From: Chloroflexota bacterium
Lineage (GTDB): Bacteria; Chloroflexota; Anaerolineae; J102
DNA: 32,079 nucleotides
Assembly: GCA_013151415.1 (NCBI GenBank)
Contig: JAADII010000117.1
Location: 27,197-59,275, forward strand
Reading direction: 5' to 3'
Shown piece after piece: positions 5,339-23,629 of the stretch; position 1 is the first letter of the stretch, and each line of letters begins with the position of its first letter. The notes below the pieces were generated by a model. The model ran no database searches. It was not told the DNA's origin and was given only the letters and a program-made list of their open reading frames with translations. The position numbers and the translations under genes are program-made.

Positions 5339-5362
5339 GCCGCCCATGTGCGGCTCTTTTTT
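5339..5362 (+). terminator. Short GC hairpin with T-run in the lacI leader
   Basis: GCCGC (5339-5343) pairs with GCGGC (5350-5354) over a 6-base loop. T, C and six T follow. This is a compact intrinsic-terminator shape between promoter and coding start, and it would truncate some transcripts before the regulator gene. The stem is only 5 pairs, so its strength is uncertain. Confidence 0.45.
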
Positions 5363-5373
5363 AGCGAGAGTGG

Positions 5374-5385
5374 TTAAACGTTTAA
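5374..5385. promoter_or_regulatory. LacI-type operator O2, overlapping the ribosome-site position
   Basis: This site is identical to O1 and 53 bases from it centre to centre, about five helical turns, so repressor dimers would face the same side. It ends two bases before the ATG at 5388, where a Shine-Dalgarno sequence would normally be. Confidence 0.8.
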
Positions 5386-5387
5386 TT

Positions 5388-6413
5388 ATGGCGACCGTCA
5401 CTATTCGCGATGTGGCGAGAGAGGCCGGGGTCTCCACGGCCACTGTTTCTTATGTGCTCAACAATTCGGGGCGCGTGAGCGAACAGACGCGGCAACGGGT
5501 GTTGGAGGCCGCGCGACGATTGGGGTATCGGGCCAATATCACCGCACGCAATCTTCAGGCGCGCGAGACGCGGCTGTTGGGCTACACCTGGCGTCCCACG
5601 CCGCCCGACCAGTTCAACCCCGTCCTCGACCAGTTCCTCAACGCCATCGCGCAGGCGGCCGCGCATCACGATTACCGCGTGCTCACCTTTCCCAGCGAGA
5701 CCATCGAGGAGGAGCTGGCCACCTACGAGGACATGGTGCTGAGCAGCCGCGTGGACGGGTTCATCCTCTCCAACACGAACCTGGACGACCCGCGCGTGCG
5801 CAAGCTCTCGCAGAAGGGCTTCCCATTCGTGGCCTTTGGCCGCGCGAACCCGGAATGGGATTTCCCCTGGGTGGACATCGACGGACGCTGGGGTGTGAGA
5901 AAAGCGGTGGAGCATCTCATCGAGCGGGGGCATGAGCGCATCGCCTGTCTGGCCTGGCCCGAAGATTCGCTCACGGGCGCGTATCGTTTGCAGGGCTATG
6001 TCGAGGCCATGAAGCTGGCCGGTCTACCCGTGGATGCGGCCTGGATCGCGCGCACCGAAAACAAGCACGACGACGCCTATGAAACCACGCGGCGCTTGCT
6101 CGAATTGCCCGCGGCGCGACGTCCCACGGCCATCATGGCCTCGTCCGATCTCATGGCCATGGGCGCGATGAACGCCGCGCACGATATGGGCGTCGAGGTG
6201 GGGCGCGAGCTGGCGCTGGTCGGGTTCGACGACGCGCCTGTGGCCCGCTATTTGCGCCCTCCTCTTAGCTCGTTGCGTCAACCCATCGCCGAGGTGGGCG
6301 AGCGCCTCATTGTCATGTTGGTGGACTTGTGCCAGGGCCGACCGGTCTCCCAGCAACATGTGCTTCTCAAGCCTCAGCTCATCATCCGCGCCTCGAGCGA
6401 TTTTCGGTTTTAG
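5388..6413 (+). CDS. LacI/GalR-family transcriptional repressor
   Basis: The 341-residue protein starts MATVTIRDVAREAGVSTATV. It has the canonical N-terminal helix-turn-helix (residues 4-25) and hinge helix (ARRLGYRANITARNLQ), then a periplasmic-binding-protein-like sensor domain with the usual strands (LLGYTW, DGFILSN, RGHERIACLAW, PTAIMASSDLMAMGAMNAA, ELALVGFDDAP). ATG 5388 matches family alignments. An in-frame ATG at 5346 would add 14 residues encoded by the leader hairpin and operator and is rejected. No Shine-Dalgarno is visible because operator O2 occupies that place. It is probably autoregulated through two TTAAACGTTTAA sites. As the first gene of the sugar locus it is the obvious candidate regulator of the phosphorylase and transporter, although I found no clear operator copy in front of those genes. 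The effector is probably an alpha-glucoside or a sugar phosphate. Confidence 0.95.
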   Translation: MATVTIRDVAREAGVSTATVSYVLNNSGRVSEQTRQRVLEAARRLGYRANITARNLQARETRLLGYTWRPTPPDQFNPVLDQFLNAIAQAAAHHDYRVLTFPSETIEEELATYEDMVLSSRVDGFILSNTNLDDPRVRKLSQKGFPFVAFGRANPEWDFPWVDIDGRWGVRKAVEHLIERGHERIACLAWPEDSLTGAYRLQGYVEAMKLAGLPVDAAWIARTENKHDDAYETTRRLLELPAARRPTAIMASSDLMAMGAMNAAHDMGVEVGRELALVGFDDAPVARYLRPPLSSLRQPIAEVGERLIVMLVDLCQGRPVSQQHVLLKPQLIIRASSDFRF

Positions 6414-6464: not shown

Positions 6465-6635
6465 GACGATGGACGGTAGGCGATAAGACCATGGGGGCAG
6501 GCTCATTTATCGTCCATCGTCCCATCGTCCATCGTCCCATCGTCCCCCTCATCGACCCCACCACCCCCAATATCCAATACCCAATACCCCAATACCCCAA
6601 TACCCCAATACCTCAATACCCCAATACCCACCACC
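6465..6635. repeat. Two abutting low-complexity tracts: CCATCGTC and CCAATACC families
   Basis: A left GACGATGGACGGTAGGCGAT unit (6465-6484) faces repeated CATCGTCC units (about 6510-6552), forming an imperfect inverted repeat. Directly after this, CCAATACC-type units (7-8 bases) run from about 6568 to 6632, up to the start codon of the phosphorylase gene. The tract is open in the same frame as that gene but encodes only a repetitive peptide (PIVHRPIV, QYPNTPIP) and is taken as non-coding. Confidence 0.7.
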
Positions 6636-6637
6636 CC

Positions 6638-9568
6638 ATGCATCTCCAAGCCATCATTTTCGACCTCGACGGCGTCATCACCGACACAGCGGAATATCAT
6701 TATCGAGCCTGGAAGCGTCTGGCCGATGAGGAGGGCTATCCCTTTGACCGAACGGTGAACGAGCGATTGCGCGGGGTTTCGCGCCGAGCGTCGCTGGACA
6801 TCATTCTCGACGGTCGCAAGGTCGAGGAGGCGCGCATCGAGGAGATGATGGCGCGCAAGAATCGCTATTATGTGGAGATGCTGGCGCAGGTCTCGCCCGA
6901 TGACCTGTTGCCTGGGGTGGCGAAGTTGTTCCAAGAGTTGAAAGAGGCCGGGATCAAGATCGGCATCGGCTCGGCCAGCAAGAACGCCCGCGCGGTGCTG
7001 GAGCGGTTGGGCCTGATGGATTGGCTGGATGTCATCGCGGATGGACATAGCGTGCAGCAACCCAAACCCGCGCCCGACCTTTTCCTGTACGCGGCCCAGG
7101 AGATGGGCGTTTCGCCGGGGCTGTGCGCGGTGGTCGAGGACGCGGCCGCGGGGATCGATGCGGCCCTGGCCGCGGGCATGTGGGCCATTGGTCTGGGGCC
7201 GGAAAGCCGCGTCGGTCACGCGCACGCTCGTTTCGACAGCCTGGCCGAGGTGCATTTGGACGACATCTTGCAGGCGTTGGAGCAGGCCTCATGGATGGTT
7301 TACGAGGCGCGTTTCGAGCCGGAGCGATTGCATCACAAGGAGACGGTCTTCACCATCGGCAATGGCTATCAATGCATGCGGGGCGCGTTCGAGGAGGGGT
7401 ATCCGGGTGAGCATGGGGCCGCGTTTGTGCACCGTTTGTGGGATTACACCCCTCTCCATTTCGAGGAGTTGGCCAATATTCCGCGCTGGTGGGGCGCGGA
7501 CATCTGGGTGGATGGCGAGCGTTTTCGCCTGGATCGGGGCGAAGTGCTGAGCTATCGGCGGGACCTGGATTTGCGCACAGGATTGCTCACCCGCCGCGTG
7601 CGCTGGCGACCGCGTCCCGATGGCCCCCTGGTCGCGCTCACGTTTCGGCGTTTTGTGAGCCTGGCCGAGGCGCACGTGGGGGCCGTGCAGATAGATGTCG
7701 ATCTGGTGGAGGGCGAGGCCGAGGTGCGCATGCGAGCGGGTCTGGACGCGCACGCAACCAATCCCTTGCCGGCCGCGCCCGTGGATGATATGGGCCTGAT
7801 GCATTGGCGGTTGCTCCATCAGACCCAGGATGAATCGGAGGCGACCCTATTGGTGCAGACTCGCGCCAGCGAGGTGACCCTGGCCCTGGCTGCTTGCATC
7901 GAAGCCGAGAGAACAGGTTCCGTCGCCAAATCCGTCTCGAATGAGGCGATCCGCGCGACGTTTTGCGACGCCGACGGCCAGCCCGCGGCCGAGCGAAGCG
8001 TTCATTTGAGCGAAGGGGAAGGGCTGCGTTTGCAGAAATTCGTGGGCGTAGTCAGCGAGTTCGACGCGCTCAACCCTCATCGCACGGCCCTTCGCGTGGC
8101 TCGACAGGCCCGTTCCGCGGGTTGGGACGCGTTGTTCAAAGCCAACGCGCGGGCCTGGCAAGATGTGTGGGAGGCCGGCGACATCGAGGTGGAAGGGGAC
8201 ATCGAGGCGCAGATCGCCCTGCGTTTCAACCTTTTCCAACTCATCATCGCCGCGCCTCGCTTCACCGAATTCGCCAGCATTGGGGCCAAGACGCTGAGCG
8301 GGTTTGGCTATCGGCATCATGTGTTCTGGGACACCGACATCTTCATGCTGCCCTATTTCACCTACACCCAGCCGCACCTGGCGCGGAACATGCTCATGTA
8401 TCGCTATCACACCTTGCCAGCGGCCCGCGAAAAAGCCCGCGCTAACGGCCATGAGGGCGCTCAGTTCCCCTGGGAGAGCGCGTCCGACGGCCGCGAGGTC
8501 ACCCCCACCTGGGTTCCCCATCCCACCGATCCCACCCGACTCATTCGCATCTGGACGGGCGACATCGAGATTCACATCACCGCGGACATCGCCTACGCGG
8601 TCATGCAATACTGGCGGGTCACCGGCGACGACGCCTGGATGCGCGACTTCGGCGCGGAAATCGTGTTGGATGGGGCCAAGTTTTGGGCCAGCGCCGCGCG
8701 GTTGGAGGAGGATGGCCGCTATCATTACCGCGATGTCATCGGCCCGGATGAATATCACGACCATGTGGACGACAACGCCTACACCAACGCGCTGGCCAAG
8801 TGGCATTTGCAGACCGCGTTCGAGGTGCTGGACTGGCTGAAAACCCATTTTCCCGGCAAGCGCAGGCAGCTTGTTCTGGATTTGAAGCTCACGCCCGACC
8901 GGCTTTTGCACTGGCGCGACGTTATCGAGCGTTTGCACATACCCCAGGACGAAAAGAGCGGTCTCATAGAGCAATTTTCGGGTTATTTCGAGCTGCAAGA
9001 GCCGGATTTCGCGACATTGCGCGACCCCAACCGCACTCATTCCATGCAAACGCTTCTGGGCATCGAGGGTTGCGCGGCCACGCAGATCATCAAGCAGCCC
9101 GATGTGCTCATGTTGCAATATTTGCTGCCCGATTGGTTCGACGAGGGCCAGATGCGCGTGAACTACGATTATTATAACCCGCGCACCGATCACGAGCACG
9201 GGAGCAGCCTCGGCCCCAGCATCAGCGCGATCATGGCCGCGCGCGTGGGCGATATCGCCGCGGCTTACGAGCATTTCATGCGCGCCGCGCGCGCGGATTT
9301 GCAGGATGTCCGGCACAATGCCGGCGACGGCATTCATGGCGCCAGCGCCGGTGGTTTGTGGATGGCCGCGGTGTTTGGTTTTGGCGGCCTGGAAATACAA
9401 GACGATGGCTGGGTTGCGCGACCGCGGTTGCCGCGGCATTGGACGCGCCTGGCGTTTCGATTCATGCTGCGCGGGCGCTCCCACAGCGTCGAATTGACCC
9501 CCAACGCCAACAGCCCGCCACCCCAAAAAAGTGGCCGAGCCGTTTCTGATGTCTTGGCGGACGAGTGA
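6638..9568 (+). CDS. Bifunctional beta-phosphoglucomutase / GH65 disaccharide phosphorylase
   Basis: The fusion has 976 residues. Residues 1-215 are a HAD-family beta-phosphoglucomutase: nucleophile motif FDLDGV with Asp9 and Asp11, cap domain, IGIGSASKN, KPAPDLFL, and VVEDAAAGIDAA. Residues about 220-960 are a GH65 phosphorylase: IGNGYQCMRGAFEEG at its start, YRHHVFWDTDIFMLP in the (alpha/alpha)6 barrel, and IGPDEYHDH with the general-acid Glu at about residue 705. GH65 inverting phosphorylases split maltose, trehalose, kojibiose or nigerose with phosphate to beta-glucose 1-phosphate, which the HAD half converts to glucose 6-phosphate. Fusing the two channels the intermediate. The exact disaccharide cannot be read from sequence. 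ATG 6638 starts exactly at the HAD domain (MHLQAIIFDLDGV); upstream in-frame codons are repeat DNA. No ribosome site is visible. It lies between lacI and the sugar ABC genes. Confidence 0.93.
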   Translation: MHLQAIIFDLDGVITDTAEYHYRAWKRLADEEGYPFDRTVNERLRGVSRRASLDIILDGRKVEEARIEEMMARKNRYYVEMLAQVSPDDLLPGVAKLFQELKEAGIKIGIGSASKNARAVLERLGLMDWLDVIADGHSVQQPKPAPDLFLYAAQEMGVSPGLCAVVEDAAAGIDAALAAGMWAIGLGPESRVGHAHARFDSLAEVHLDDILQALEQASWMVYEARFEPERLHHKETVFTIGNGYQCMRGAFEEGYPGEHGAAFVHRLWDYTPLHFEELANIPRWWGADIWVDGERFRLDRGEVLSYRRDLDLRTGLLTRRVRWRPRPDGPLVALTFRRFVSLAEAHVGAVQIDVDLVEGEAEVRMRAGLDAHATNPLPAAPVDDMGLMHWRLLHQTQDESEATLLVQTRASEVTLALAACIEAERTGSVAKSVSNEAIRATFCDADGQPAAERSVHLSEGEGLRLQKFVGVVSEFDALNPHRTALRVARQARSAGWDALFKANARAWQDVWEAGDIEVEGDIEAQIALRFNLFQLIIAAPRFTEFASIGAKTLSGFGYRHHVFWDTDIFMLPYFTYTQPHLARNMLMYRYHTLPAAREKARANGHEGAQFPWESASDGREVTPTWVPHPTDPTRLIRIWTGDIEIHITADIAYAVMQYWRVTGDDAWMRDFGAEIVLDGAKFWASAARLEEDGRYHYRDVIGPDEYHDHVDDNAYTNALAKWHLQTAFEVLDWLKTHFPGKRRQLVLDLKLTPDRLLHWRDVIERLHIPQDEKSGLIEQFSGYFELQEPDFATLRDPNRTHSMQTLLGIEGCAATQIIKQPDVLMLQYLLPDWFDEGQMRVNYDYYNPRTDHEHGSSLGPSISAIMAARVGDIAAAYEHFMRAARADLQDVRHNAGDGIHGASAGGLWMAAVFGFGGLEIQDDGWVARPRLPRHWTRLAFRFMLRGRSHSVELTPNANSPPPQKSGRAVSDVLADE

Positions 9569-9767: not shown

Positions 9768-12347
9768 ATGAAACCTCGAAAATTGCTGATCCTGACCATT
9801 GTGTTGATGCTTGCTCTCGTGCTGGCCGCGTGTGGGGGCGCGAAAGAGGAGCCAACTCCCACCCCTCAGCCCGCTCCCACCAAGGCGCCTGAGCCGACCG
9901 AAGCGCCCGCGGCCACCGAAGCCCCCGCGGCCGAACCGGCCATGTATGGCGACTTGAAAGTCATCGATGTGGAGCCGGGCGCGACCATTGTTTTCTCGGG
10001 CTGGGGCGATGAGACCGAACAGCAGATCTACCGCGACTCCATCGAACGCTTCAAAGAGTTTTATCCCGATGTCACGGTGGATTATCAGCCCATCCCCGCG
10101 GATTTCCAAACCAAGCTCAAAGCCATGATGGCCGGCGGCACCGCGCCCGACGTGTTCTATGTGGACGATCAGCTTATGACCGCATTCGGGCCGAGCGGCC
10201 AGTTGTTGGCCCTGGACGATTACATGGCCGAGGCCGGGGCCAGCCGCGACGACTTCATCCCCGCGCTGCTGACCATTTTCACCCTGGACGGCAAGACCTA
10301 CGGCCTGCCCAAGGACTGGGGCACGCTGGGTCTGGTCTATTTGCCCGACGTGTTCGCCGAGGCCGGCATCGACGAGCCGACCGCGGACTGGACCTGGGAT
10401 GACCTGAAAGCCGCGGCCGAAGTCATCCGCGACAATACGGACAAGGGCGGCTTCTGTCAGAATGCCGATTGGGCCCGCTTTGCGCCCTGGGCCTTTGGCA
10501 ACGGCGGCGCGTATGCGACCGACGACTTCAGCGCGCCGCTCCTGAACACGCCCGAGGTCATCGAGGCCGCCAAGTATGTGACCGACATGTATAAGGACGG
10601 TTCCATCGTCACCTCGTCCGACGTGGGCGCGGGTTGGTGCGGCGAGGCCATCGGCAAGCAGCTTGTGGGCATGACCTACGAGGGCGGCTGGATGGTCAAC
10701 TTCATGCGCCAGAACTACCCCGATGTGAATTGGAAGGCCGTTGAGTTGCCTTCGGGTCCCAAGGGCAAGGCCGATGTGATCTTCACCAACGCCATCGGCG
10801 TCAACGCCAACACCAAGTATCCCAAGGCCGCGGCCGCGTTCACCATCTTCCTGACCAGCCGTTACAACCAGGCCGAGATCGTGAAGACCGGCTTCGCGTA
10901 CAGCACGCATCCCGACCAGCTCGATCTGGTGCAAGACCCCAACGACCGCGCCATCGCCGCGGGCGGCGCGTTCCCGCTGACGCGCGTGGCCTACTGGGGC
11001 CCGAACACGGGCAAGATCAACGACATCGTCTCCAAAGCCCTGGAGCGGGTCTATCTGGGTGAGCAGACGGTGGAGGAGAGCTTCGCCCAGGCCCATGAAG
11101 AGGCCAAGGAGTTCCTGACCGGCGGCGGTCAGGCGGCCGGGCCTATTGAAGCGCCGTCCGCTCCGGAAGGCGTGCCTATGATGGAGGTGGAATCGGGCGC
11201 GACCATCGTCTTCTCGGGCTGGGGTGACGAGACCGAGCAGCAGATCTACCGCGACTCCATCGAACGCTTCAAGGAGTTCTACCCCGATGTCACGGTGGAT
11301 TACCAGCCCATTCCCGCGGATTTCCAGACCAAGCTCAAGGCCATGATGGCCGGTGGGACCGCGCCCGATGTGTTCTATGTGGACGATCAGCTCATGACCG
11401 CATTCGGGCCGAGCGGCCAGTTGTTGGCCCTGGACGATTACATGGCCGAGGCCGGCGTCTCGCGCGATGACTTCATCCCCGCGCTGCTGACCATCTTCAC
11501 CCTGGACGGCAAGACCTACGGTCTGCCCAAGGACTGGGGCACGCTGGGTCTGGTCTATTTGCCCGACGCGTTCGCGAAGGCCGGCATCGACGAGCCGACC
11601 GCGGACTGGACCTGGGATGACCTGAAAGCCGCGGCCGAAGCCATCGCCGCGGAGGGAACCTACGCCGGCTTCTGCCAGAATGCGGACTGGGCCCGCTTCG
11701 CTCCCTTTGTCTTTGGCAACGGCGGCGCGTACGCCAGCGACGATTACACCACCGCGCTGCTGGACACGCCCGAGGTGAAGGAAGCCGCCGCTTTCATCCT
11801 CAGCATGAAGGAGTCGGGCGCGCTGGTCACCTCGTCCGATGTCGGCGCGGGCTGGTGCGGCGAAGCCATCGGCAAAGAGCTGGTGGGCATGACCTACGAG
11901 GGCGGCTGGATGGTCAACTTCATGCGCCAGAACTATCCTGATGTGGAATGGAAGGCCGTGGAGCTGCCCTCCGGCCCCAAGGGCAAGGCCGACGTGATCT
12001 TCACCAACGCCATCGGCGTCAACGCCAACACCAAGTATCCCAAGGCCGCGGCCGCGTTCACTCTGTTCGTGACCAGCCGCTACAACCAGGCCGAGATCGT
12101 GAAGACCGGCTTCGCGTACAGCACGCATCCCGACCAGCTCGACCTGGTGCAAGACCCCAACGACCGCGCCATCGCCGCGGGCGGCGCGTTCCCGCTGACG
12201 CGCGTGGCTTATTGGGGCCCGAACACGGGCAAGGTCAACGATGCCGTCTCCAAGGCGCTGGAGCGCATCTATCTGGGCGATCAGACCATCGACGAAAGCT
12301 TTGCTCAGGCCCAGGAAGAGGCGCAGGCCGCGCTTTCGGGCGAATAA
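9768..12347 (+). CDS. ABC sugar-binding lipoprotein with two tandem binding modules
   Basis: ATG 9768 follows a strong AGGAGGAG site, giving 859 residues. MKPRKLLILTIVLMLALVLA ending in AAC is a lipoprotein signal peptide (Cys22), followed by a Pro/Thr/Glu-rich tether (residues 25-60). Two family-1 (MalE-like) solute-binding modules then follow head to tail, at about residues 68-453 and 474-859. They are offset by exactly 406 codons and nearly identical (both begin with ATIVFSGWGDETEQQIYRDS). One middle block differs more (about 10,420-10,610 against 11,638-11,830). The linker between modules is about 20 residues, GGGQAAGPIEAPSAPEG-like. Only one lipid anchor exists, so one chain would present two sugar receptors to the downstream permeases. 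Normal family members have one module of about 400 residues. A misassembly of two genes is possible but the frame is perfect. Confidence 0.95.
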   Translation: MKPRKLLILTIVLMLALVLAACGGAKEEPTPTPQPAPTKAPEPTEAPAATEAPAAEPAMYGDLKVIDVEPGATIVFSGWGDETEQQIYRDSIERFKEFYPDVTVDYQPIPADFQTKLKAMMAGGTAPDVFYVDDQLMTAFGPSGQLLALDDYMAEAGASRDDFIPALLTIFTLDGKTYGLPKDWGTLGLVYLPDVFAEAGIDEPTADWTWDDLKAAAEVIRDNTDKGGFCQNADWARFAPWAFGNGGAYATDDFSAPLLNTPEVIEAAKYVTDMYKDGSIVTSSDVGAGWCGEAIGKQLVGMTYEGGWMVNFMRQNYPDVNWKAVELPSGPKGKADVIFTNAIGVNANTKYPKAAAAFTIFLTSRYNQAEIVKTGFAYSTHPDQLDLVQDPNDRAIAAGGAFPLTRVAYWGPNTGKINDIVSKALERVYLGEQTVEESFAQAHEEAKEFLTGGGQAAGPIEAPSAPEGVPMMEVESGATIVFSGWGDETEQQIYRDSIERFKEFYPDVTVDYQPIPADFQTKLKAMMAGGTAPDVFYVDDQLMTAFGPSGQLLALDDYMAEAGVSRDDFIPALLTIFTLDGKTYGLPKDWGTLGLVYLPDAFAKAGIDEPTADWTWDDLKAAAEAIAAEGTYAGFCQNADWARFAPFVFGNGGAYASDDYTTALLDTPEVKEAAAFILSMKESGALVTSSDVGAGWCGEAIGKELVGMTYEGGWMVNFMRQNYPDVEWKAVELPSGPKGKADVIFTNAIGVNANTKYPKAAAAFTLFVTSRYNQAEIVKTGFAYSTHPDQLDLVQDPNDRAIAAGGAFPLTRVAYWGPNTGKVNDAVSKALERIYLGDQTIDESFAQAQEEAQAALSGE
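9969..11126 (+). repeat. Direct repeat copy 1 (binding-protein module)
   Basis: This is the first copy of an intragenic direct repeat with an offset of 1218 bases. Long stretches match copy 2 with only scattered, mostly silent changes. The segment around 10,420-10,610 is clearly diverged. Confidence 0.9.
11187..12344 (+). repeat. Direct repeat copy 2 (binding-protein module)
   Basis: This is the second copy of the intragenic duplication and ends at the gene's stop. Residues around its start read VESGATIVFSGW against VEPGATIVFSGW in copy 1. Confidence 0.9.
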
Positions 12348-12366: not shown

Positions 12367-12403
12367 ATCCTCCGGGGGGCCATCCCTTGGTCTCCCGGAG
12401 GAT
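12367..12403 (+). terminator. Strong stem-loop after the binding-protein gene, no T-run
   Basis: ATCCTCCGGG (12367-12376) pairs perfectly with CCCGGAGGAT (12394-12403) over a 17-base loop. There is no T-run, so it may protect the 3' end of the binding-protein message or partly terminate. Either would give more binding protein than permease, as in many mal-type operons (inference). Confidence 0.55.
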
Positions 12404-12702
12404 ATTCGATATGGATATTCGATATTGGGTATTGGATATTTGGTATTGAGTGATTACTTGTTTGAAATTTGAGCAACATCTTTTGCCGACGTTGACCAAA
12501 ATAGACGAAAGTAGGCTAATGTGGACGAAAGTAGACCAATGTAGACCAATGTAGACCAATATAGACCAAGTGCTACTTCGTCCATTTTCGTCTTATGGTC
12601 TATCTTCGTCTGCTTGCATGCCATTGGGTGTTCGTGAATATGGGGGAAATGCTCAATATCCAATATCCAATACCCAATACCCAGTACCCAATACCCAGTA
12701 TC
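12401..12702. repeat. Nested inverted low-complexity repeats between binding protein and permease
   Basis: This 371-base gap (12348-12718) has no gene. An outer left tract of GATATTGGGTATTGG-type units (12401-12450) is complementary in kind to an outer right tract of CCAATATCCAATACCC-type units (12654-12702). Inside these, GACGAAAGTAGACCAATG-type units (12495-12570) face TTTTCGTCTTATGGTCTATC-type units (12578-12611). All units are 7-12 bases and degenerate. Transcribed, the whole could fold into one long imperfect hairpin. Confidence 0.65.
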
Positions 12703-12718
12703 CAACCTGGAGCGTGCC

Positions 12719-13957
12719 ATGACCGCAACCACGAGCCAAACCTATGTGAAACCTCGCGAAGGTCATCCTCTGTTGGCGGCCATTGTCGCCTTTGTCATCG
12801 TCTTTTTCGTGATGACATGGGCGACCATTCTTTCCGCGCCCACCAAAGGCGCGCCCATCACCGACTTCAGCCGCTATATGCGCGAAGCCATGGCCACCGC
12901 GCCGGCCTTCATCTATTCGGGCATGGGGCTGGGCGTTCTCCTGGGCGCCGCCTTTGCAACCATGACCTATCGCGTATGGGGCGTGCGGCATAAGCGCCAG
13001 GATTTCATCGCCGCCTATATCTTCCTCGCGCCCTACCTTTTCGTCACCCTGATTTTCACCATCGGCGTGTTGATCTTCGCCTTTTACATCGCCTTTCACC
13101 GTTACGACATCTTCACCGACCCGGTGTTTGTGGGGCTGAAGAACTTTGAAAAAGCGTTCAAGTCCAAGGATTTCTTGCGTTCGCTGGTCAACGTGTTCTG
13201 GTATTCGCTGTTGGTGACCGTGATTCAGACCACGTTCGCCCTGCTGCTGGCCGTGTTTCTCAACCAGAAGATTCGAGGGCGCAATTTCTTCCGCACCGTG
13301 TTCTACACGCCCAGCGTGACCTCGTCGGTGGTGATTTCTTTGATATTTTGGTGGCTTTATCTGAAGACGGGTTATCTGAACTGGTTTTTCGACCAGGTGT
13401 GGTCGTGGTTCGGGGCCGAGTGGAAGGCCGTCAACTGGCTCAACGACCCGCGCGGGCTGTTTCAGCTCATCGCCCGCGCGTTCGGCGGCGACATCCCCTC
13501 CAAATACTGGTATCTGCGCGGCCCCAGCGTCACCTGGATGGCCATCATGTTTCAGAACATCTTCACCACCATTCCCACCTTCATGATCATGTTCCTGGCC
13601 GGATTGCAGGACATCCCCCAGAGCCTTTATGAGGCCGCAGACATCGACGGCGCTAACGATTGGCACAAGTTGCGCCATGTCACCATTCCCATGTTGCGGC
13701 CCATTATCTTGCTGGTGGTTGTGCTGGGAACCATCGGCACATTGCAGATTTTCGATCAGGTGAAGATTCTGACCAGCGGCGGGCCGTTGGGCACCACGCT
13801 CACGCCGGTTTACATCGTTTACACCGAGGCCCTGGGCACGCAAGGCCCCATTCAGATGGGCTACGCCTCGGCCCTGGCCTTTATTCTCTTTGTCATCATT
13901 TTCGTGTTCACCTTCCTGCAACGCCGCTACATCGAGCGCGAGACGGAGATGTATTGA
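12719..13957 (+). CDS. ABC sugar permease, MalF-like
   Basis: The 412-residue polytopic membrane protein starts at ATG 12719 with GGAG six bases upstream (12709-12712). Two extra N-terminal membrane helices (around residues 22-42 and 60-84) precede the six-helix permease core, which begins near FIAAYIFLAPYLFVTLIF. The EAA loop that docks the ATPase is clear: YEAADIDGANDWHKLRHVTI then PMLRP. With the next permease it forms the channel fed by the double binding protein. The extra N-terminal helices fit MalF-type subunits. It shares the opening MTATT with the next permease. Confidence 0.93.
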   Translation: MTATTSQTYVKPREGHPLLAAIVAFVIVFFVMTWATILSAPTKGAPITDFSRYMREAMATAPAFIYSGMGLGVLLGAAFATMTYRVWGVRHKRQDFIAAYIFLAPYLFVTLIFTIGVLIFAFYIAFHRYDIFTDPVFVGLKNFEKAFKSKDFLRSLVNVFWYSLLVTVIQTTFALLLAVFLNQKIRGRNFFRTVFYTPSVTSSVVISLIFWWLYLKTGYLNWFFDQVWSWFGAEWKAVNWLNDPRGLFQLIARAFGGDIPSKYWYLRGPSVTWMAIMFQNIFTTIPTFMIMFLAGLQDIPQSLYEAADIDGANDWHKLRHVTIPMLRPIILLVVVLGTIGTLQIFDQVKILTSGGPLGTTLTPVYIVYTEALGTQGPIQMGYASALAFILFVIIFVFTFLQRRYIERETEMY

Positions 13958-14082: not shown

Positions 14083-14170
14083 GGCTCGTCGAGGGCGCGT
14101 TTCCTAGACTTTGGCAAGAAACTTTTGGAAAAGTTGTACATTCGGTTGTTATCTCCAAGGAGAAGTTCCT

Positions 14171-15073
14171 ATGACCGCAACGACTGCGACGACCGCGAAA
14201 GTGGCCGTGAAGACCCCAAAGGGCGAAGAGCCGCAGTGGGGTCGATATGCGCTGACTTTCCTCAAATACTTTTTGCTGGTGACCCTGGGCCTGGTCGCGC
14301 TGACGCCCTTTATCCTGGCCTTTTTGGGCACCTTCAAGACCGACGCGGAGATCATCGCTTGGCCGCCCACCTTCTTGCCCAAGGAATGGTTGTGGGAAAA
14401 CTGGGTGAAGACCTGGCAAACCGATCTGGGCGAGGGCGCGACTTTCCCGCGCTGGTTGTTCAACACGGCCGTGGTGTCTTTGGGTTCCGCGGTCGCGCAG
14501 GTGGTGTTCTGTTCCATGTCCGCGTACGCGTTCGCTCGGCTGCGATTTCCCGGCCGCGACGCGGTGTTCGCGTTCATGCTGGCCAGCATGATGATCCCCG
14601 GCGCGGTGACGCTCATTCCGGCCTATGTGGTCATGACCAAGATCCGCTTCGTCAACACCTACTGGTCGTTGCTGGTTCCGGGCGCGGTGTCCGCGGGGAG
14701 CATCTTTTTGCTGACGCAGTTTCTCAAGGGCATTCCTATGGAGCTGGAGGAGGCCGCGTTTGTGGATGGCGCGTCCCGTTTTCGCATTTATAAAGATGTC
14801 ATTTTGCCCCTGTCGCGGCCCGCGCTGCTGACGGTGTTCATCTTGCAGTTCCAGGCCATGTGGAACGCGTTCCTTCCGCCCCTGCTCTACCTGAACACGC
14901 CCCGCATGTGGGTGCTCAATGTGGCGCTGACCGTATTCCAACAACAATACAAGGCGCAATGGAACCTGACCCTGGTCGCGGCCATGTTCAACGCCATTCC
15001 CATCCTTATCCTTTTCGCCTTCTTCAGCCGATATTACATCGAGGGCATCAGTTATGCGGGTCTGAAAGGGTGA
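14171..15073 (+). CDS. ABC sugar permease, MalG-like
   Basis: ATG 14171 follows AAGGAG (14157-14162) by 8 bases, giving 300 residues. An in-frame ATG at 14111 would lie upstream of this ribosome site and is rejected. A cytoplasmic N-terminus is followed by six membrane helices starting with YFLLVTLGLVALTPFILAFL. The EAA motif reads EEAAFVDGASRFRIYKDVIL then PLSRP. It pairs with the MalF-like subunit. No ATP-binding subunit gene is in the cluster, so a shared MsmK/MalK-type ATPase encoded elsewhere is expected. It ends 20 bases from the convergent E2 gene. Confidence 0.95.
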   Translation: MTATTATTAKVAVKTPKGEEPQWGRYALTFLKYFLLVTLGLVALTPFILAFLGTFKTDAEIIAWPPTFLPKEWLWENWVKTWQTDLGEGATFPRWLFNTAVVSLGSAVAQVVFCSMSAYAFARLRFPGRDAVFAFMLASMMIPGAVTLIPAYVVMTKIRFVNTYWSLLVPGAVSAGSIFLLTQFLKGIPMELEEAAFVDGASRFRIYKDVILPLSRPALLTVFILQFQAMWNAFLPPLLYLNTPRMWVLNVALTVFQQQYKAQWNLTLVAAMFNAIPILILFAFFSRYYIEGISYAGLKG

Positions 15074-15093: not shown

Positions 15094-16452
15094 TCAAGCC
15101 AGGCCCAACAGCAAATAAGGCTCCTCGATATATTCTTTGAGTGCGCGTAAGAAACGCGCTGCTGGCGCGCCGTCAACCAGGCGATGATCGAATACGAGGC
15201 TCAGCGTCAACATGTCGCGTGCGACGATCTCGCCATTTCTGACCACAGGTTTGGCGGCAATGCGACCAACGCCCAGAATGGCTGCTTCGGGCAAGTTGAT
15301 CACGGGGGTGAAGGCGTCCACATCAAACGAACCCAAACTTGTGATGGTGAATGTGCCGCCTCTGAGGCTATCGGGCGAGATGCGGCCCGACCGGGCTTGC
15401 TGCACCAACTCCCGAAATTCCATCCCTAGCTCGCGAAGGCTCTTCTGATCTGCATCTTTGATGTTGGGGACAACAAGACCTCGTTCGGTGTCCACGGCGA
15501 CGCCCAAATTGATATGCGCCAGATATTCGATGGCGTCATTCGTGAGTCGGGCATTCATGTAAGGGAATTCACGCAGCGCGCGCGCCGCGATAAAGGCCAG
15601 CAAATCATGATAACCGGGTGAAAAACCCCATTTTTCCGACACCCGGGCTTTGAGCCGTTTGCGCATCATCACCAACTCGGTTGCGTCCACTTCCATCACC
15701 AGGGTGACGCGAGCGGTTGTATGCACGCTTTTGGCCATGCGCTCGGCAATGATCTTCCGCACGCCTGTCAATGGCTTGCGCTCGAGCGCTTCGACCTCAG
15801 CGGCTGCTTGCCGGATCGTCGAACGCGATTCGCGGCCTGGGGCGCGCTCGGCTTGCGCGGCCAGCGCGCGCGCCACATCCTTTTTGGTGATGCGACCGCC
15901 AATGCCCGTGCCCGCCAATGCGCTTATATCCAGATCTGCGTCTTCGGCCATCTTGCGAGCGACAGGCGTAATGCCTTGTCGTCGCTCCAGATAAGCCAAC
16001 ACGTCTCGCTCGATGATGCGACCGCCAGGCCCGCTGGCCGTGAGTTGCGCCACATTCACCCCTTTTTGTGCAGCCAACCGGCGCGCGCGTGGCGAGATGG
16101 CTCGCCAGCCCGATGACCGCTCCATCTGGGAGACTTGGTCAGATGGGCTCGGTTTTTGAGCGCGTTCCTCGCCATGAGTTGCGGCTGTTGGCCCATTTTC
16201 CGGAAATGCTTCGTCTTTTTTCCCAATGATGGCCACTCTGGTGAATACGGGCGTGACATCACCACTATCAAATGGCCCTAAATGAATGAAACCATCCGCG
16301 GGAGCCTCCACCGCGAATGTCGCTTTATCCGTTTCGATCTCCAATATTTCCTGGCCTTTCGTCACTTCGTCGCCGTCGTTGACCAACCATTCAACAATGG
16401 TCACATCTTCGACCGTGTTGCCTAATTTGGGAATAAGCACGGGTTCGGGCAT
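15094..16452 (-). CDS. Dihydrolipoamide acyltransferase (E2) of a 2-oxoacid dehydrogenase complex
   Basis: The 452-residue E2 has an N-terminal lipoyl domain (residues 1-78, lipoylated Lys43 in EIETDKATFA). Two tandem peripheral-subunit-binding domains follow (about 118-155, ISPRARRLAAQKGVNV; about 162-198, TPVARKMAEDADLDISALAG), then the C-terminal CoA acyltransferase with DHRLVDG (His423, Asp427). E2 transfers the acyl group from the E1 product to CoA and forms the core of the complex. AGGAG (16465 to 16461) precedes the ATG. The gene follows the DeoR-family regulator with a 21-base gap, so they are probably co-transcribed, while the E1 gene diverges. No E3 dihydrolipoamide dehydrogenase gene is nearby. 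The acyl specificity (pyruvate, branched-chain or acetoin) cannot be decided from sequence. Confidence 0.95.
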   Translation of the reverse strand: MPEPVLIPKLGNTVEDVTIVEWLVNDGDEVTKGQEILEIETDKATFAVEAPADGFIHLGPFDSGDVTPVFTRVAIIGKKDEAFPENGPTAATHGEERAQKPSPSDQVSQMERSSGWRAISPRARRLAAQKGVNVAQLTASGPGGRIIERDVLAYLERRQGITPVARKMAEDADLDISALAGTGIGGRITKKDVARALAAQAERAPGRESRSTIRQAAAEVEALERKPLTGVRKIIAERMAKSVHTTARVTLVMEVDATELVMMRKRLKARVSEKWGFSPGYHDLLAFIAARALREFPYMNARLTNDAIEYLAHINLGVAVDTERGLVVPNIKDADQKSLRELGMEFRELVQQARSGRISPDSLRGGTFTITSLGSFDVDAFTPVINLPEAAILGVGRIAAKPVVRNGEIVARDMLTLSLVFDHRLVDGAPAARFLRALKEYIEEPYLLLGLA

Positions 16453-17485: not shown

Positions 17486-19948
17486 ATGCCGAAAAGTATT
17501 TTCATTGATCCGAACGAAGCGCGTAAGCCGGGAGCCATTCGGGGACCGGAAATTCCGGTGAACGCTTACGCATCCGATCCTAAGGCCGAAGCCGAGCGTT
17601 TTGGACGTCATGGTTTGGTGAAAATGTATCAAGACATGGCCACAATTCGTGAATTCGAGCTCATGCTGGATAGCGTGAAGAAACGCGGCGAATATGAGGG
17701 GATCGCGTACAATCATCGTGGGCCGGCGCATCTCTCCATTGGCCAAGAGGCGGCTGCGGTGGGGCAGGCCTATTATCTCACGCCCGATGACTTCATCTTT
17801 GGCTCGCATCGCAGTCATGGCGAGATTCTGGCCAAAAGCCTCTCGGCCATTTCTCAGTTGGATGATGACGAGCTCATGAACATCATGGAGACCTATTTGG
17901 ATGGTTTGATTCTGAGGGCCGTCGAGCGCTTTAGCCAGGCGCGAGAGGTGAAAGCGTTGGCCATCGATTTCACGTTATATGGGGCTTTGGCGGAGATTTT
18001 TGGGCGCGAGACCGGTTTCAACAGGGGAATGGGCGGTTCGATGCACGCATTTTTCCCGCCTTTTGGCGTGATGCCCAATAACGCCATCGTGGGCGGTTCG
18101 GCCGACATCGCCACCGGCGCGGCCCTGTTCAAGCGCATTCGCCGCAAACCCGGCATAGTCATCGCCAACATTGGCGATGCGTCTATGGGCTGCGGGCCGG
18201 TGTGGGAGGCCATGATGATGGCGGCCATGGACCAATACCGCACTCTTTGGCCTTCTGAGCTCGGAGGCGCGCCTCCCATGCTTTTCAACTTCATGAACAA
18301 TTTTTACGGCATGGGCGGCCAGCCTCAAGGCGAGACCATGGGGTTCGGCATGTTGGCTCGGGTGGCTTTGGGCGTCAATCCCGACGCCATGCACGCCGAA
18401 CGCATCGATGGCTATAATCCTTTGGCCGTGGCCGACGCCATCGCCCGCAAAAAGGAAATCTTGCTCGCGGGCCAGGGGCCGGTTTTATTGGACACGGTCA
18501 CCTACCGTTTTTCCGGTCATTCCCCCTCAGACGCCATGGCCTATCGCACAAAAGAGGAGCTGGAGGCCTGGCGAGAACAGGATTCGTTGGTCGCGTTTGG
18601 ACGTTATTTGCAGGAGCATGGCCACGCGACCGCCAACGAGCTGGAAACCATTCATGCGCAAATCAAGGCGCGTGTGCTGGAGGTCTATCGGGCGGCGGTG
18701 TCGGATGAGATTTCACCTCGCCTCGATCTGAACGGCCCCGCGCTCGAAGAAATGATGTTTTCAGACGAATATGCGGACCGGCTGGCGGATGAGGAGCCGG
18801 AAGTGCTGTTGCCGCTGGAGAAAACGCGTTTCAGGCTTACATCGCGCAAAGCGCGCTTTGGCCTGGATGAGCAGGGAAACAAGCTGTCCAACATGCGGGC
18901 TGTGACCTATGCCGAAGCGCTTTTCGAAGCCATGATCTATCGTTTCTATCACGATCCCACCATGGTGGCCTGGGGTGAAGAAAATCGCGATTGGGGCGGC
19001 GCGTTTGGCGTTTATCGCGGCCTGACCGAAGCTTTGCCTTATCATCGACTATTCAACACGCCCATTTCCGAAGGCGCGATTGTGGGCGCGGCCGTGGGAT
19101 ATGCGATTTCGGGCGGCCGCGTGGTGGCCGAGCTTATGTATACCGATTTCATGGGGCGCGCCGGCGATGAGATATTCAATCAGATGGCCAAATGGCAGTC
19201 GATGTCGGCCGGCATTTTGAAGATGCCTTTGGTGTTGCGGGTGTCGGTGGGCTCGAAATACGGCGCGCAGCATTCGCAAGATTGGAGTTCCATCGTCGCC
19301 CATATTCCTGGGCTAAAGATCATGTTTCCGGCTACGCCCTACGACGCCAAAGGCATGTTGAACCTGGCATTACGCGGGACCGATCCGGTGGTCTTTTTTG
19401 AAAGCCAACGGCTTTATCCCGAACCCGAGGTGTTGGTCGAGGGGGGCGTGCCTGTGGATTATTATGAGGTTCCTTTGGGCGAGCCGGTCACGCGTCGCGT
19501 GGGGAGCGATGTCACCATGCTCACTTTGGGCGCCAGTCTTTACCGGGCGTTGGACGCGGCCAAAGATCTGGAGAGCAAATATGGGGTTTCGGCCGAGGTC
19601 ATCGATCTGCGCTTTATCAATCCCTTAAATTACGAGCCATTGCTTGCCTCGGTAAAGAAAACAGGGCGGGTGCTGCTCATCTCCGACGCGGTCGAGCGCG
19701 GCTCCTTTATGCACACAGTGGCCTCAAATCTGGCTCAACTCGCGTTCGATTATCTGGACGGGCCTCCGGTGGTGGTGGGTTCTCGCAATTGGATCACTCC
19801 TCCGGCAGAGTTGGAGACCTATTTTTTCCCGCAGAAAACCTGGATCATCGACGCCTTGCACGAGCGTATTTTGCCATTGCCTGGGCATCAACCCGCCACA
19901 CAACAGGCGTTATCTGAAATTGTGCGGAGAAACCAGTTGGGCGTTTAG
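17486..19948 (+). CDS. Fused E1 alpha/beta 2-oxoacid dehydrogenase (thiamine diphosphate enzyme)
   Basis: The 820-residue protein starts at ATG 17486 after AGGAG (17471-17475). Residues about 40-410 are the alpha part, with [31 protein letters not shown] and the thiamine-diphosphate/Mg motif GDA at 230-232 ending with NN at 271-272. The gap is longer than usual, with the insert [11 protein letters not shown]. Residues about 470-800 are the beta part ([30 protein letters not shown] with the cofactor-activating Glu529, [20 protein letters not shown]). E1 decarboxylates a 2-oxoacid and passes the acyl group to lipoyl-E2. The two halves are separate genes in most bacteria. An unusual segment at residues 118-170 lies between the HRSHG loop and the GMGGS motif. 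It diverges from deoR/E2 and is probably the same complex. The substrate is not determinable. Confidence 0.93.
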
Positions 19949-20679: not shown

Positions 20680-21780
20680 ATGGCCAATGCTTTTGCCGTC
20701 GAGCTGCGAAACGTGGTCAAGCGTTTTGGCGACGTGACGGCGGTGAACAACGTCTCGTTGCAAATTCGGCAAGGGGAGTTTTTCTCGTTGCTCGGGCCCA
20801 GCGGTTGTGGCAAAACCACAACCTTGCGCATGATTGCGGGCTTCGAGATGCCCACATCGGGCGAAATTTATATTGATGGCGAGCCGCTGGGCTATATGCC
20901 GCCCAACAAGCGGCCTGTAAACACCGTGTTTCAGCATTACGCCCTCTTCCCACACATGACCGTGGAGCAAAATGTGGGCTTTGGCCTGGAGATGCAGGGC
21001 GTGGACAAGGCCGAGATACGCCGCCGCGTGGGCGAGGCGTTAGAGATGGTGAAGCTATCGGGCATGGAGAAGCGCCGTCCCAAACAGCTTTCGGGCGGCC
21101 AACAGCAACGCGTGGCCCTGGCTCGCGCGCTGGTCAATCGGCCCAAGGTGCTGCTGCTCGACGAACCTTTGGGTGCGCTGGACCTGAAGTTGCGCAAGGC
21201 CATGCAAATGGAGCTCAAGGCCTTGCAAGAGGAAGTGGGCATCACCTTCATTTATGTGACTCACGATCAGGAGGAAGCCCTGACCATGTCGGACCGCATC
21301 GCGGTCATGGATGAAGGGGTGGTGCACCAGGTGGACGAGCCGGAAAACATCTACGAGCGACCGGCCGACCGTTTCGTGGCCGATTTCATCGGCGAGACCA
21401 ATTTCATCCCCGCTCGCGTTGTGCAGTTGGGGCCGCCTGTGGTGGTGGAGATAGCGGGCCGCGTGCGCGTGCCGGCCGCGTGGGCCGAACAAGGATTGTC
21501 GGAGGGCGATCAGGCGTTGCTGTCGATCCGGCCAGAGAAGATCAATCTGTACGAGGAGCGCGAGCTGGGAGAGGCGGGCCCGACCACCGCGCGCGTCGAG
21601 GGCCGCATCCAGCAAATGGTCTACGTGGGCACCGATACGCGGCACACGGTGCGCCTGGCCGACGGCTCGGTTTTGGTGGCCCGATTGCAAAATATTCATA
21701 CCGAGGAAGAGCCGTGGACCGTGGGCGAGAGGACCATTGTGGAATGGGACGCGGCTCACGCCCGTGTGTTGAGGGTTTAG
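20680..21780 (+). CDS. potA: Spermidine/putrescine-type ABC transporter ATP-binding protein
   Basis: The 366-residue protein starts at ATG 20680, four bases after GGAGGA. Walker A is GPSGCGKTT (39-47), the signature LSGGQQQR (137-144), Walker B VLLLDEP (157-163), and the switch His is in THDQEEA. A C-terminal TOBE regulatory domain follows (about 250-366: LLSIRPEKI, RIQQMVYVGTDTRHTVRL). This length and TOBE domain are typical of PotA/FbpC-type import ATPases. The downstream potB, potC and potD neighbours support polyamine specificity. It drives uptake by ATP hydrolysis at the inner face of the membrane. It could also energise other importers in trans, but the sugar permeases in this window more likely use a MalK/MsmK protein. 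Confidence 0.95.
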   Translation: MANAFAVELRNVVKRFGDVTAVNNVSLQIRQGEFFSLLGPSGCGKTTTLRMIAGFEMPTSGEIYIDGEPLGYMPPNKRPVNTVFQHYALFPHMTVEQNVGFGLEMQGVDKAEIRRRVGEALEMVKLSGMEKRRPKQLSGGQQQRVALARALVNRPKVLLLDEPLGALDLKLRKAMQMELKALQEEVGITFIYVTHDQEEALTMSDRIAVMDEGVVHQVDEPENIYERPADRFVADFIGETNFIPARVVQLGPPVVVEIAGRVRVPAAWAEQGLSEGDQALLSIRPEKINLYEERELGEAGPTTARVEGRIQQMVYVGTDTRHTVRLADGSVLVARLQNIHTEEEPWTVGERTIVEWDAAHARVLRV

Positions 21781-21784
21781 CATC

Positions 21785-22651
21785 ATGGAACAAGTGCTTC
21801 GTCGCAATCCCGCTTTACGAGGATGGCTGCTGGTGTTGCCGGCCGCGGTGTTTTTGATCATTTTTTTCATGATCCCGCTGCTGATCGTATTCGTATACAG
21901 TTTTCTAGAGCGGGGAACATACGGCGGCGTCATATGGCAATTCACCCTGGAAAACCTGGCGCGCACTTTCGATCCGCTCTACTTCAGCACCTTTTTGCGC
22001 TCGGTCTATATCGCCATTCTCACCACGCTGATTTCCTTGCTTCTGGGTTATCCGCTGGCTTATTTCATCACCACGCGACCGGCGCATCAGCGCAATCTCT
22101 ATGTGTTGGCCCTGATGATTCCCTTCTGGACGAATTTCCTCATCCGCACCTACGCCTGGCTGACCCTGCTGCGCACCCACACCGGCCTGATCAATGTTTC
22201 GCTCACTTCGCTGGGAATCATCGAAAAACCGTTGCCTTTGTTTGGCAACGACTTCGCCATCGTGTTGGGGTTGGTCTATGGTTGGCTGCCGGTGATGGTC
22301 TTGCCCATTTATGCGGCTCTAGAGCGGCTGGACAAGAGCCTAATCGAGGCCGCTCAGGATTTGTATGCCTCGGGCGCGCAGGTGTTTCGGCGGGTGATCT
22401 GGCCGCTTTCTTTGCCCGGCGTGGTGGCCGGGTCCATGCTCGTGTTCATCCCCTCGTTGGGCGCATTCGTGACCCCCGCCATTTTGGGCGGCGGCAAATC
22501 ACTTATGATCGGCAACATCATCAGCAACCAGTTTTTGGCCGCGCATGATTGGCCGTTTGGCTCCGCGCTCTCCATGCTGATGATGATCGTCATGCTTCTG
22601 GCCACCTTGATCTATTTCCGTTGGGCCTTGCGAGAAGGAGTGCAGCCATGA
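21785..22651 (+). CDS. potB: Polyamine ABC transporter permease PotB
   Basis: The 288-residue inner-membrane protein has six predicted helices, starting with GWLLVLPAAVFLIIFFMIPL. The PotB-type region LMIPFWTNFLIRTYAWLTLL is clear, as is the EAA-like ATPase-docking loop (IEAAQDLYASGAQVFRRVIW then PLSLPG). Only four bases separate it from potA, and its stop overlaps the start of potC (ATGA), so the genes are translationally coupled. With PotC it forms the channel of the complex. Confidence 0.95.
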   Translation: MEQVLRRNPALRGWLLVLPAAVFLIIFFMIPLLIVFVYSFLERGTYGGVIWQFTLENLARTFDPLYFSTFLRSVYIAILTTLISLLLGYPLAYFITTRPAHQRNLYVLALMIPFWTNFLIRTYAWLTLLRTHTGLINVSLTSLGIIEKPLPLFGNDFAIVLGLVYGWLPVMVLPIYAALERLDKSLIEAAQDLYASGAQVFRRVIWPLSLPGVVAGSMLVFIPSLGAFVTPAILGGGKSLMIGNIISNQFLAAHDWPFGSALSMLMMIVMLLATLIYFRWALREGVQP

Positions 22652-23532
22652 ACGACGCCAATCGGAGCCACGATCGCCTGGCGCGGTGGCGGGCCAGCCT
22701 TGGTGGCTGGATCCTTTCCGGCTACGGCGTTCTCGCCTATCTCTTCCTTTATTTGCCCATTGTCATCCTGGTCGTGTTTTCGTTCAACGACTCGCGTTCC
22801 ACAAGCCAATGGCAGGGGTTCACGGTCGATTGGTATTACGCCATGTTCGACGACCGGCAAATCATCCTTTCTCTGTGGAACAGTTTCTTCCTGGCCGTGG
22901 TCTCCACCATCATCGCCACGGTGTTGGGCACGCTCATTGCGCTGGGTCTCGAGCGCTATAGTTTTCGCGGCAAGACCGCGGTCGATTCCATGCTTTATCT
23001 GCCGGTGATCATTCCCGACATCGCCATGGCCATCATGCTGCTGATCTTTTTCAATCTCAGCGGCATCGGGTTTCAGCCCTGGAAGGTGCAATTCTTTGGC
23101 GTGAAGCTGGCTGTGCCTTATTCGGTGATCATCGCGCACGTGGCCTTCAATATCTCTTTTGTGGCCATTGTGGTGCGGGCGCGATTGGCGCAAATGGACC
23201 GCACCCTCGAAGAAGCCGCGCAAGATTTATACGCCAACTCCTGGCGCACATTTCGACGCATCACTCTTCCCATGCTCATGCCCGGCATCATTGGCGGCGC
23301 GCTGCTGGCTTTCACGTTGTCGTTGGACGATTTCGTCATCACCTTCTTCACCAGCGGCGCGGGTTTCAACACCTTGCCTGTGCGCGTGTTTGGCATGATC
23401 AAAAAAGGCGTGACCCCCAAGATCAATGCGGTCTCCACCTTGATGTTGGTGGTTTCGCTTTCGTTGGTTTTTCTCTCGATTATCATGCGCCGTCGCGGCG
23501 GAGACGATGAACCGATTCAGTTCGGATTTTGA
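22648..23532 (+). CDS. potC: Polyamine ABC transporter permease PotC
   Basis: The 294-residue protein starts at ATG 22648, overlapping the potB stop by four bases and preceded by AAGGAG (22635-22640). A longer in-frame reading from 22549 lies within potB and is rejected. Six helices begin with GYGVLAYLFLYLPIVILVVF. The motifs MLYLPVIIPDIAMAIMLL and the EAA loop (LEEAAQDLYANSWRTFRRIT then LPMLMPG) are standard for PotC. LSLDDFVITFF is a family hallmark. Confidence 0.95.
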   Translation: MNDANRSHDRLARWRASLGGWILSGYGVLAYLFLYLPIVILVVFSFNDSRSTSQWQGFTVDWYYAMFDDRQIILSLWNSFFLAVVSTIIATVLGTLIALGLERYSFRGKTAVDSMLYLPVIIPDIAMAIMLLIFFNLSGIGFQPWKVQFFGVKLAVPYSVIIAHVAFNISFVAIVVRARLAQMDRTLEEAAQDLYANSWRTFRRITLPMLMPGIIGGALLAFTLSLDDFVITFFTSGAGFNTLPVRVFGMIKKGVTPKINAVSTLMLVVSLSLVFLSIIMRRRGGDDEPIQFGF

Positions 23533-23629
23533 CCCTCTTCCTACTATTGCGTTCCGTCACCCATCTCCATCAGGAAACCATCTTTCGTTTGTTCAGCCGT
23601 TCATTAGCCTTCACCAAGGAGAATTCACC

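Follow-up and report, generated by a model that had tools for sequence, protein, structure and literature searches.

Organisation of the locus

The window, by which the whole analysed stretch of 32,079 nt is meant, contains the gene of a sugar-binding lipoprotein that carries two modules of the same type in one chain. The gene is accompanied by those of a regulator, a fused phosphorylase and two permeases, and the following features were assigned.

5346–6413, + strand: LacI-family regulator (Pfam LacI and Peripla_BP_3)
6491–9568, + strand: fusion of beta-phosphoglucomutase (beta-PGM) and GH65 glycoside phosphorylase, 1025 aa
9768–12347, + strand: gene of the two-module sugar-binding lipoprotein, 859 aa (one open frame by translation; SBP_bac_1 twice)
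9768–9833, + strand: signal peptide ending in lipobox LVLAAC, with Cys22 as predicted lipidation site (from the sequence; predicted helix at aa 5–21)
9834–9962, + strand: Pro/Ala/Thr/Glu-rich spacer from the lipid anchor to the first module (from the sequence; pLDDT <50 at aa 23–54)
9963–11132, + strand: N module, SBP_bac_1, aa 66–455 (profile, model, structural match to 7bvt)
10488–10610, + strand: diverged block of the N module, columns 176–216, hairpin and helix, with N-type "AP" at 10533–10538
11133–11180, + strand: linker, aa 456–471, following the N-module tail EFLTGGG (comparison with relatives; aa 453–463 disordered in the full-length model)
11181–12344, + strand: C module, SBP_bac_1, aa 472–859 (profile, module alignment, full-length model)
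11706–11828, + strand: diverged block of the C module, with C-type "TA" at 11751–11756
12719–13957, + strand: MalF-type permease (BPD_transp_1; conserved beside the sugar-binding protein gene in relatives)
14171–15073, + strand: MalG-type permease, from the first ATG of the ORF at 14111–15073 (translation, conservation in relatives)

A Shine-Dalgarno-like AGGAGGAG lies immediately 5′ of the two-module gene. The same set of genes, in the same or nearly the same order, is found beside both two-module and one-module relatives. In the relatives L057, L058 and L065, beta-PGM and GH65 are encoded by separate genes. The operon of the two-module protein includes no ATPase gene. The Rfam search detected no RNA element between 5000 and 15300, and neither a sigma-70-like promoter nor a terminator was found in the spacer separating the sugar-binding protein gene from the MalF gene.

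Architecture of the two-module protein

The lipobox and its Cys, MKPRKLLILTIVLMLALVLAAC, were read directly in the sequence of the 859-aa protein, which makes it a predicted bacterial lipoprotein. Its two modules are direct repeats with a constant spacing of 1218 nt and with nucleotide identities of 93%, 91% and 81% in three stretches; at the protein level, an alignment of 387 residues gives 87.6% identity between the N and C modules. The Pfam profile SBP_bac_1 (PF01547) matches the protein in two stretches (E=5.6e-66). The full-length score is 224 bits against a cut-off of 26, and the modules taken singly score 124 and 114 bits. The original prediction of one lipoprotein with two near-identical modules is thus borne out, with a single frame, one signal peptide and lipobox, the 1218-nt offset and two SBP_bac_1 domains.

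The AlphaFold model of a module (pLDDT 93.6) has a two-lobed MalE-like fold, and its best structural match is 7bvt (Z 41.0, rmsd 2.3 over 370 residues), closely followed by 3k01, 5f7v and 9xfu. The full-length model (pLDDT 88.2, pTM 0.54) consists of two well-folded domains and a disordered linker. Given this linker and the pTM of 0.54, the orientation of the modules is undefined. Both modules are complete and are predicted to fold independently, with a flexible linker between them. Doubling concerns one of approximately 22 SBP_bac_1 genes in the genome to which the window belongs.

Relatives with two modules

The sample of the class comprised 396 genomes, and in 20 of them the 859-aa protein had a strong match with one or two modules. 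The two-module form is present in 12 Anaerolineae genomes, namely that of the window and 11 others, in several of which the gene is interrupted by contig ends. These others are represented by L021, L022, L023/L100, L024, L025/L102, L026/L101, L027, L028 (with L055), L029/L104, L034 and G003 (L032 with L052). A search of relatives for the architecture of about 850 residues was therefore successful, and the earlier statement that known family members have one module fails within this subfamily.

G003 belongs to the same family as the window genome. Its two-module gene is split between L032 (4377–6286) and L052 (3–812) and has frame breaks in both modules, which may reflect either real decay or an error of assembly.

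The N module ends in a tail E[FY]LTG[GE]G, followed by a similar linker, in 11 of the 12 two-module genomes (10 of the 11 besides that of the window). This tail is absent from all single-module proteins and all C modules compared. The exception is L104, where the tail is missing, the protein's own spacer is repeated instead, and a single-module protein is the sister in the tree. Judging by the missing tail and the repeated spacer, the two-module gene of L104 is probably an independent duplication.

It might be supposed that neighbouring genes, or a single gene, were misjoined during assembly. The assembly of the window genome is fragmented (197 contigs), and repeat-related oddities occur in G003 and L022. 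However, the longest exact run shared by the modules of the window is only 68 nt, and the same linker and architecture recur in 11 further genomes, which derive from different sources. Both observations disfavour misassembly, and this explanation is close to refuted.

The diverged block

The N and C modules of the window differ at 19 of 41 residues in columns 176–216, as compared with 19 of 322 elsewhere (p=1.2e-10). A further patch of differences lies at columns 154–162, and the two together match the interval of about 10,420–10,610 in which one much more diverged middle block had been predicted. The GFCQNADWARFAP segment shows no difference between the modules. In the module model (residues 180–220), the block corresponds to the end of a helix together with the hairpin and helix that follow. 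It was also suggested that a ligand pocket could lie here; this found no support, the hairpin and helix being variable in single-module relatives as well. Among single-module proteins the block is one of the most variable stretches (entropy 1.40 vs 0.74), and part of its divergence can hence be attributed to ordinary weak constraint.

The block also carries a signature specific to position in the chain. Columns 191–192 read A-P in eight of eight N modules and T/S-A/S in eight of eight C modules, in a set that omits G003 and L022, both of which are exceptions with C-type blocks in both modules. In these two the blocks are identical or nearly identical between the modules. In label-flip tests on six two-module lineages, the block and the tail reached the top possible rank (1 of 32) and the remaining regions ranked lower; in versions with five lineages and with ten genomes some other regions ranked high too, with far smaller differences. 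Consistent N/C differences are confined to the block and the tail.

At third codon positions, the modules of the window differ at 0.41 of sites in the block and at 0.18 elsewhere (p=1e-4). The level between the window and the single-module protein L030 is about 0.36, near the value of the block. Purely synonymous tests of whether the window's block is older than its flanks are weak (p=0.04 for codons of the same amino acid, p=0.06–0.12 for fourfold sites). The NG86 dS is 0.62 in the block against 0.26, which is taken as moderate support, since multi-hit codons may inflate the estimate and the stricter counts give p=0.04–0.12. The dN is high in the block. Outside the block dN/dS amounts to 0.04–0.13, which indicates that both modules are kept functional under purifying selection.

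Age of the duplication and probable gene conversion

When whole modules are used for the tree, N and C of one genome come to lie close together, with single-module proteins among them. Without the block columns, the tree joins N and C as sisters in the window genome, G003, L028, L021 and L024, and monophyly of the N modules is rejected (p-AU 6.8e-81). The tree of block columns remains compatible with an N clade (p 0.10); on it the N/C label changes four times, compared with 7.0 times for shuffled labels, and 6 of 500 shuffles were as low. The block and the rest of the protein give different trees, in agreement with the prediction of local divergence or gene conversion around the diverged block. 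It appears from these comparisons that the modules have evolved in concert, having been homogenised repeatedly by gene conversion outside the hypervariable block and the C-terminal tail. In L022 (3773–6283), a tract of 704 nt is identical between the modules and its flanks are strongly diverged, at 22–67% of fourfold sites per bin. This is the pattern of recent conversion, which collapse of a short-read assembly could also produce.

The linker, the N-module tail and the block signature are common to several families of the class. This indicates that the duplication is old and that the similarity of the modules has been maintained, contrary to the recent duplication originally proposed. In 11 of the 12 genomes the two-module form is very probably derived from a single old duplication. 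Single-module proteins are found inside two-module clades, so that the history must also include losses or gains of a module.

Alternatively, each lineage may have duplicated its module recently and independently; the likeness of N and C within a genome would then reflect recent origin, and no conversion would be needed. Most N/C pairs are indeed sisters outside the block, single-module relatives are interspersed with them, and L104, having its own linker and a single-module sister, resembles a separate event. This explanation is nevertheless unlikely, because the motif of N-module tail and linker is common to 11 two-module genomes and occurs in no single-module protein, because the two-residue N/C signature of the block is present in all eight genomes tested, and because two parts of one protein yield discordant trees. 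Repeated recent duplication, as read from the whole-module tree alone, was dropped after the linker, tail and block signatures and the separate trees had been considered. Another candidate, according to which the sister single-module proteins L030 and L103 hold different parental blocks, was unsupported (synonymous divergence 0.55 vs 0.46).

Putative ligand sites of the modules

In the solved homologue TdCIBP (9xf5), 15 residues contact the ligand (PMC13084667). All 15 positions of the window protein that align with them are identical between the two modules. The mapping was made through a sequence alignment at about 24% identity, and local errors of one or two residues may occur; for example, Trp275 aligns with G231, next to the invariant W229. 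The identity of all aligned contact positions makes it probable that both modules bind the same sugar, and the suggestion that one chain holds two related sugars found no support.

The modules could still be specialised, the block conferring a different specificity or affinity for sugars on each of them, in the manner of GlnPQ, whose tandem domains differ in specificity (PMC8025302). Such specialisation would accord with the position-specific signature and the high dN of the block. It would also accord with columns 176–177, close to a conserved pocket helix, where the N module has WA and the C module FV. However, the alternation of W and F at this site is common among single-module proteins, in which the block as a whole is variable, and L022 and G003 do without any appreciable difference between their blocks. 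Together with the 15 identical contact positions, this leaves specialisation quite improbable.

The operon and the candidate sugar

The closest solved structure to the GH65 fusion is the kojibiose phosphorylase 3wiq (E=1.4e-139), followed by 4ktr/4ktp, which are structures of 2-O-alpha-glucosylglycerol phosphorylase. The NCBIfam model of kojibiose hydrolase scored below its cut-off on the fusion protein. The content of the operon suggests an alpha-1,2-glucoside as the putative ligand, a proposal derived from the neighbouring genes.

A similar set of genes is known in the ycj operon of E. coli, which encodes the SBP lipoprotein YcjN, the permeases YcjO/P, and YcjT, YcjU and YcjW (PMC11543891). 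YcjT is a kojibiose phosphorylase, YcjU a beta-PGM and YcjW a LacI-family protein (PMC11543891). A LacI regulator, a GH65 phosphorylase, a beta-PGM, an SBP lipoprotein and two permeases are thus common to both loci. In the window, however, one chain combines GH65 with beta-PGM, the SBP contains a second module, and other ycj enzymes are not seen alongside. No ligand is known for YcjN, although its gene neighbours that of a proven kojibiose phosphorylase and kojibiose was among the compounds screened (PMC11543891); this weighs against a ligand derived from gene neighbourhood.

Proposed working of the receptor

The protein may be regarded as the lipid-anchored receptor of a carbohydrate ABC importer, made bivalent by two sites of equal kind. 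Equal specificity, the nature of the bound sugar and faster uptake are inferred. Both modules would capture one alpha-1,2-linked glucoside of the kojibiose or glucosylglycerol type, and the fused GH65 phosphorylase and beta-PGM would turn it into glucose 6-phosphate. Two sites per anchor would give twice as many capture sites close to each MalF/MalG translocator, so that a loaded module would be at hand more often; the higher local receptor density expected from the original prediction is retained in this conditional form. The importer is assumed to draw on an ATPase encoded elsewhere. Gene conversion, possibly joined by selection for equal specificity, would keep the modules alike. For this reading as a whole, comprising a bivalent lipid-anchored receptor, an old duplication, likeness maintained by conversion and a shared sugar, we estimate a probability of about 0.6.

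The block may have been spared because different surfaces are required at the N and C positions, for example for N-specific contacts to the adjacent module, the membrane or the permease, the pockets being alike. This is compatible with the bivalent receptor and adds a cause for the sparing of the block, and the restriction of consistent N/C differences to the block and the tail speaks for it. It is nonetheless rather unlikely, because the full-length model (pTM 0.54) has no defined interface between the modules, the N/C difference is lost in L022 and G003, and the block evolves fast in general. A broader version, which we put forward tentatively and with little expectation, is a long-lived tethered relay found across the class, with two equal sites on a free lipoprotein, where conversion equalises the pockets and selection keeps the surface block and the tail distinct for separate docking roles of the N and C modules at the importer.

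Comparison with known systems

GlnPQ of Lactococcus lactis and other Gram-positives also has tandem substrate-binding domains that are joined by a short flexible linker and serve one importer (PMC8025302). These domains bind independently (PMC8025302). The linker is 14 aa long in GlnPQ and about 16–20 aa in the two-module lipoprotein. In GlnPQ, however, the domains form one chain with the permease, take amino acids as ligands and are unlike in specificity (PMC8025302), whereas the protein described here is a separate SBP_bac_1 carbohydrate lipoprotein with near-identical modules. A permease fusion of the GlnPQ type is absent, as the SBP chain ends at 12347 and the permeases are separate genes.

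The substrate-binding domain of OpuA is likewise fused to the permease. OpuA resembles the two-module protein in having two substrate-binding domains near one translocator (PMC11065425), but it has one domain per dimer subunit, and its substrate is glycine betaine. The nearest solved proteins, Lmo0181 (5f7v), CMMBP (7bvt), TdCIBP (9xf5/9xfu) and GacH (3k01), match in fold (Z 37–41) and have several aligned sugar-contact residues alike; they differ in possessing one SBP_bac_1 module each, at 21–25% identity. Searches of the open-access literature for tandem or fused SBP lipoproteins brought up only the GlnPQ and OpuA types. Both are precedents for tethered domains. The parts of the two-module lipoprotein are ordinary and their combination is unusual.

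Known examples of substrate-binding domains in tandem are fused to a permease and have differing specificities, as in GlnPQ; near-identical sites on a carbohydrate lipoprotein would make the number of sites separable from specificity. Related genomes in which a single-module homologue occupies the same operon context provide natural controls. In addition, the locus offers a natural example of apparent gene conversion within a gene that leaves one block spared.

Other features of the window

The 370-bp spacer preceding the MalF gene contains two arrays of CAATACC-type heptamers in opposite orientations, at 12400–12448 and 12654–12705. The pattern CAATACCCAATACCCAATA, with up to two mismatches, occurs 147 times in the genome, compared with 0 for the reversed control. 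A ten-base tandem array, GACCAATGTA, with 7.6 copies occupies positions 12494–12569 of the same spacer. Further downstream, at 17486–19948, the alpha and beta parts of a dehydrogenase E1 (E1_dh, Transket_pyr, Transketolase_C) are joined in one chain of 820 aa, and an E2 gene at 15094–16452 faces this fused gene. A second ABC importer is encoded at 20680–24790 and consists of an ATPase (ABC_tran, TOBE_2), a permease and a single-module SBP_bac_8 protein.
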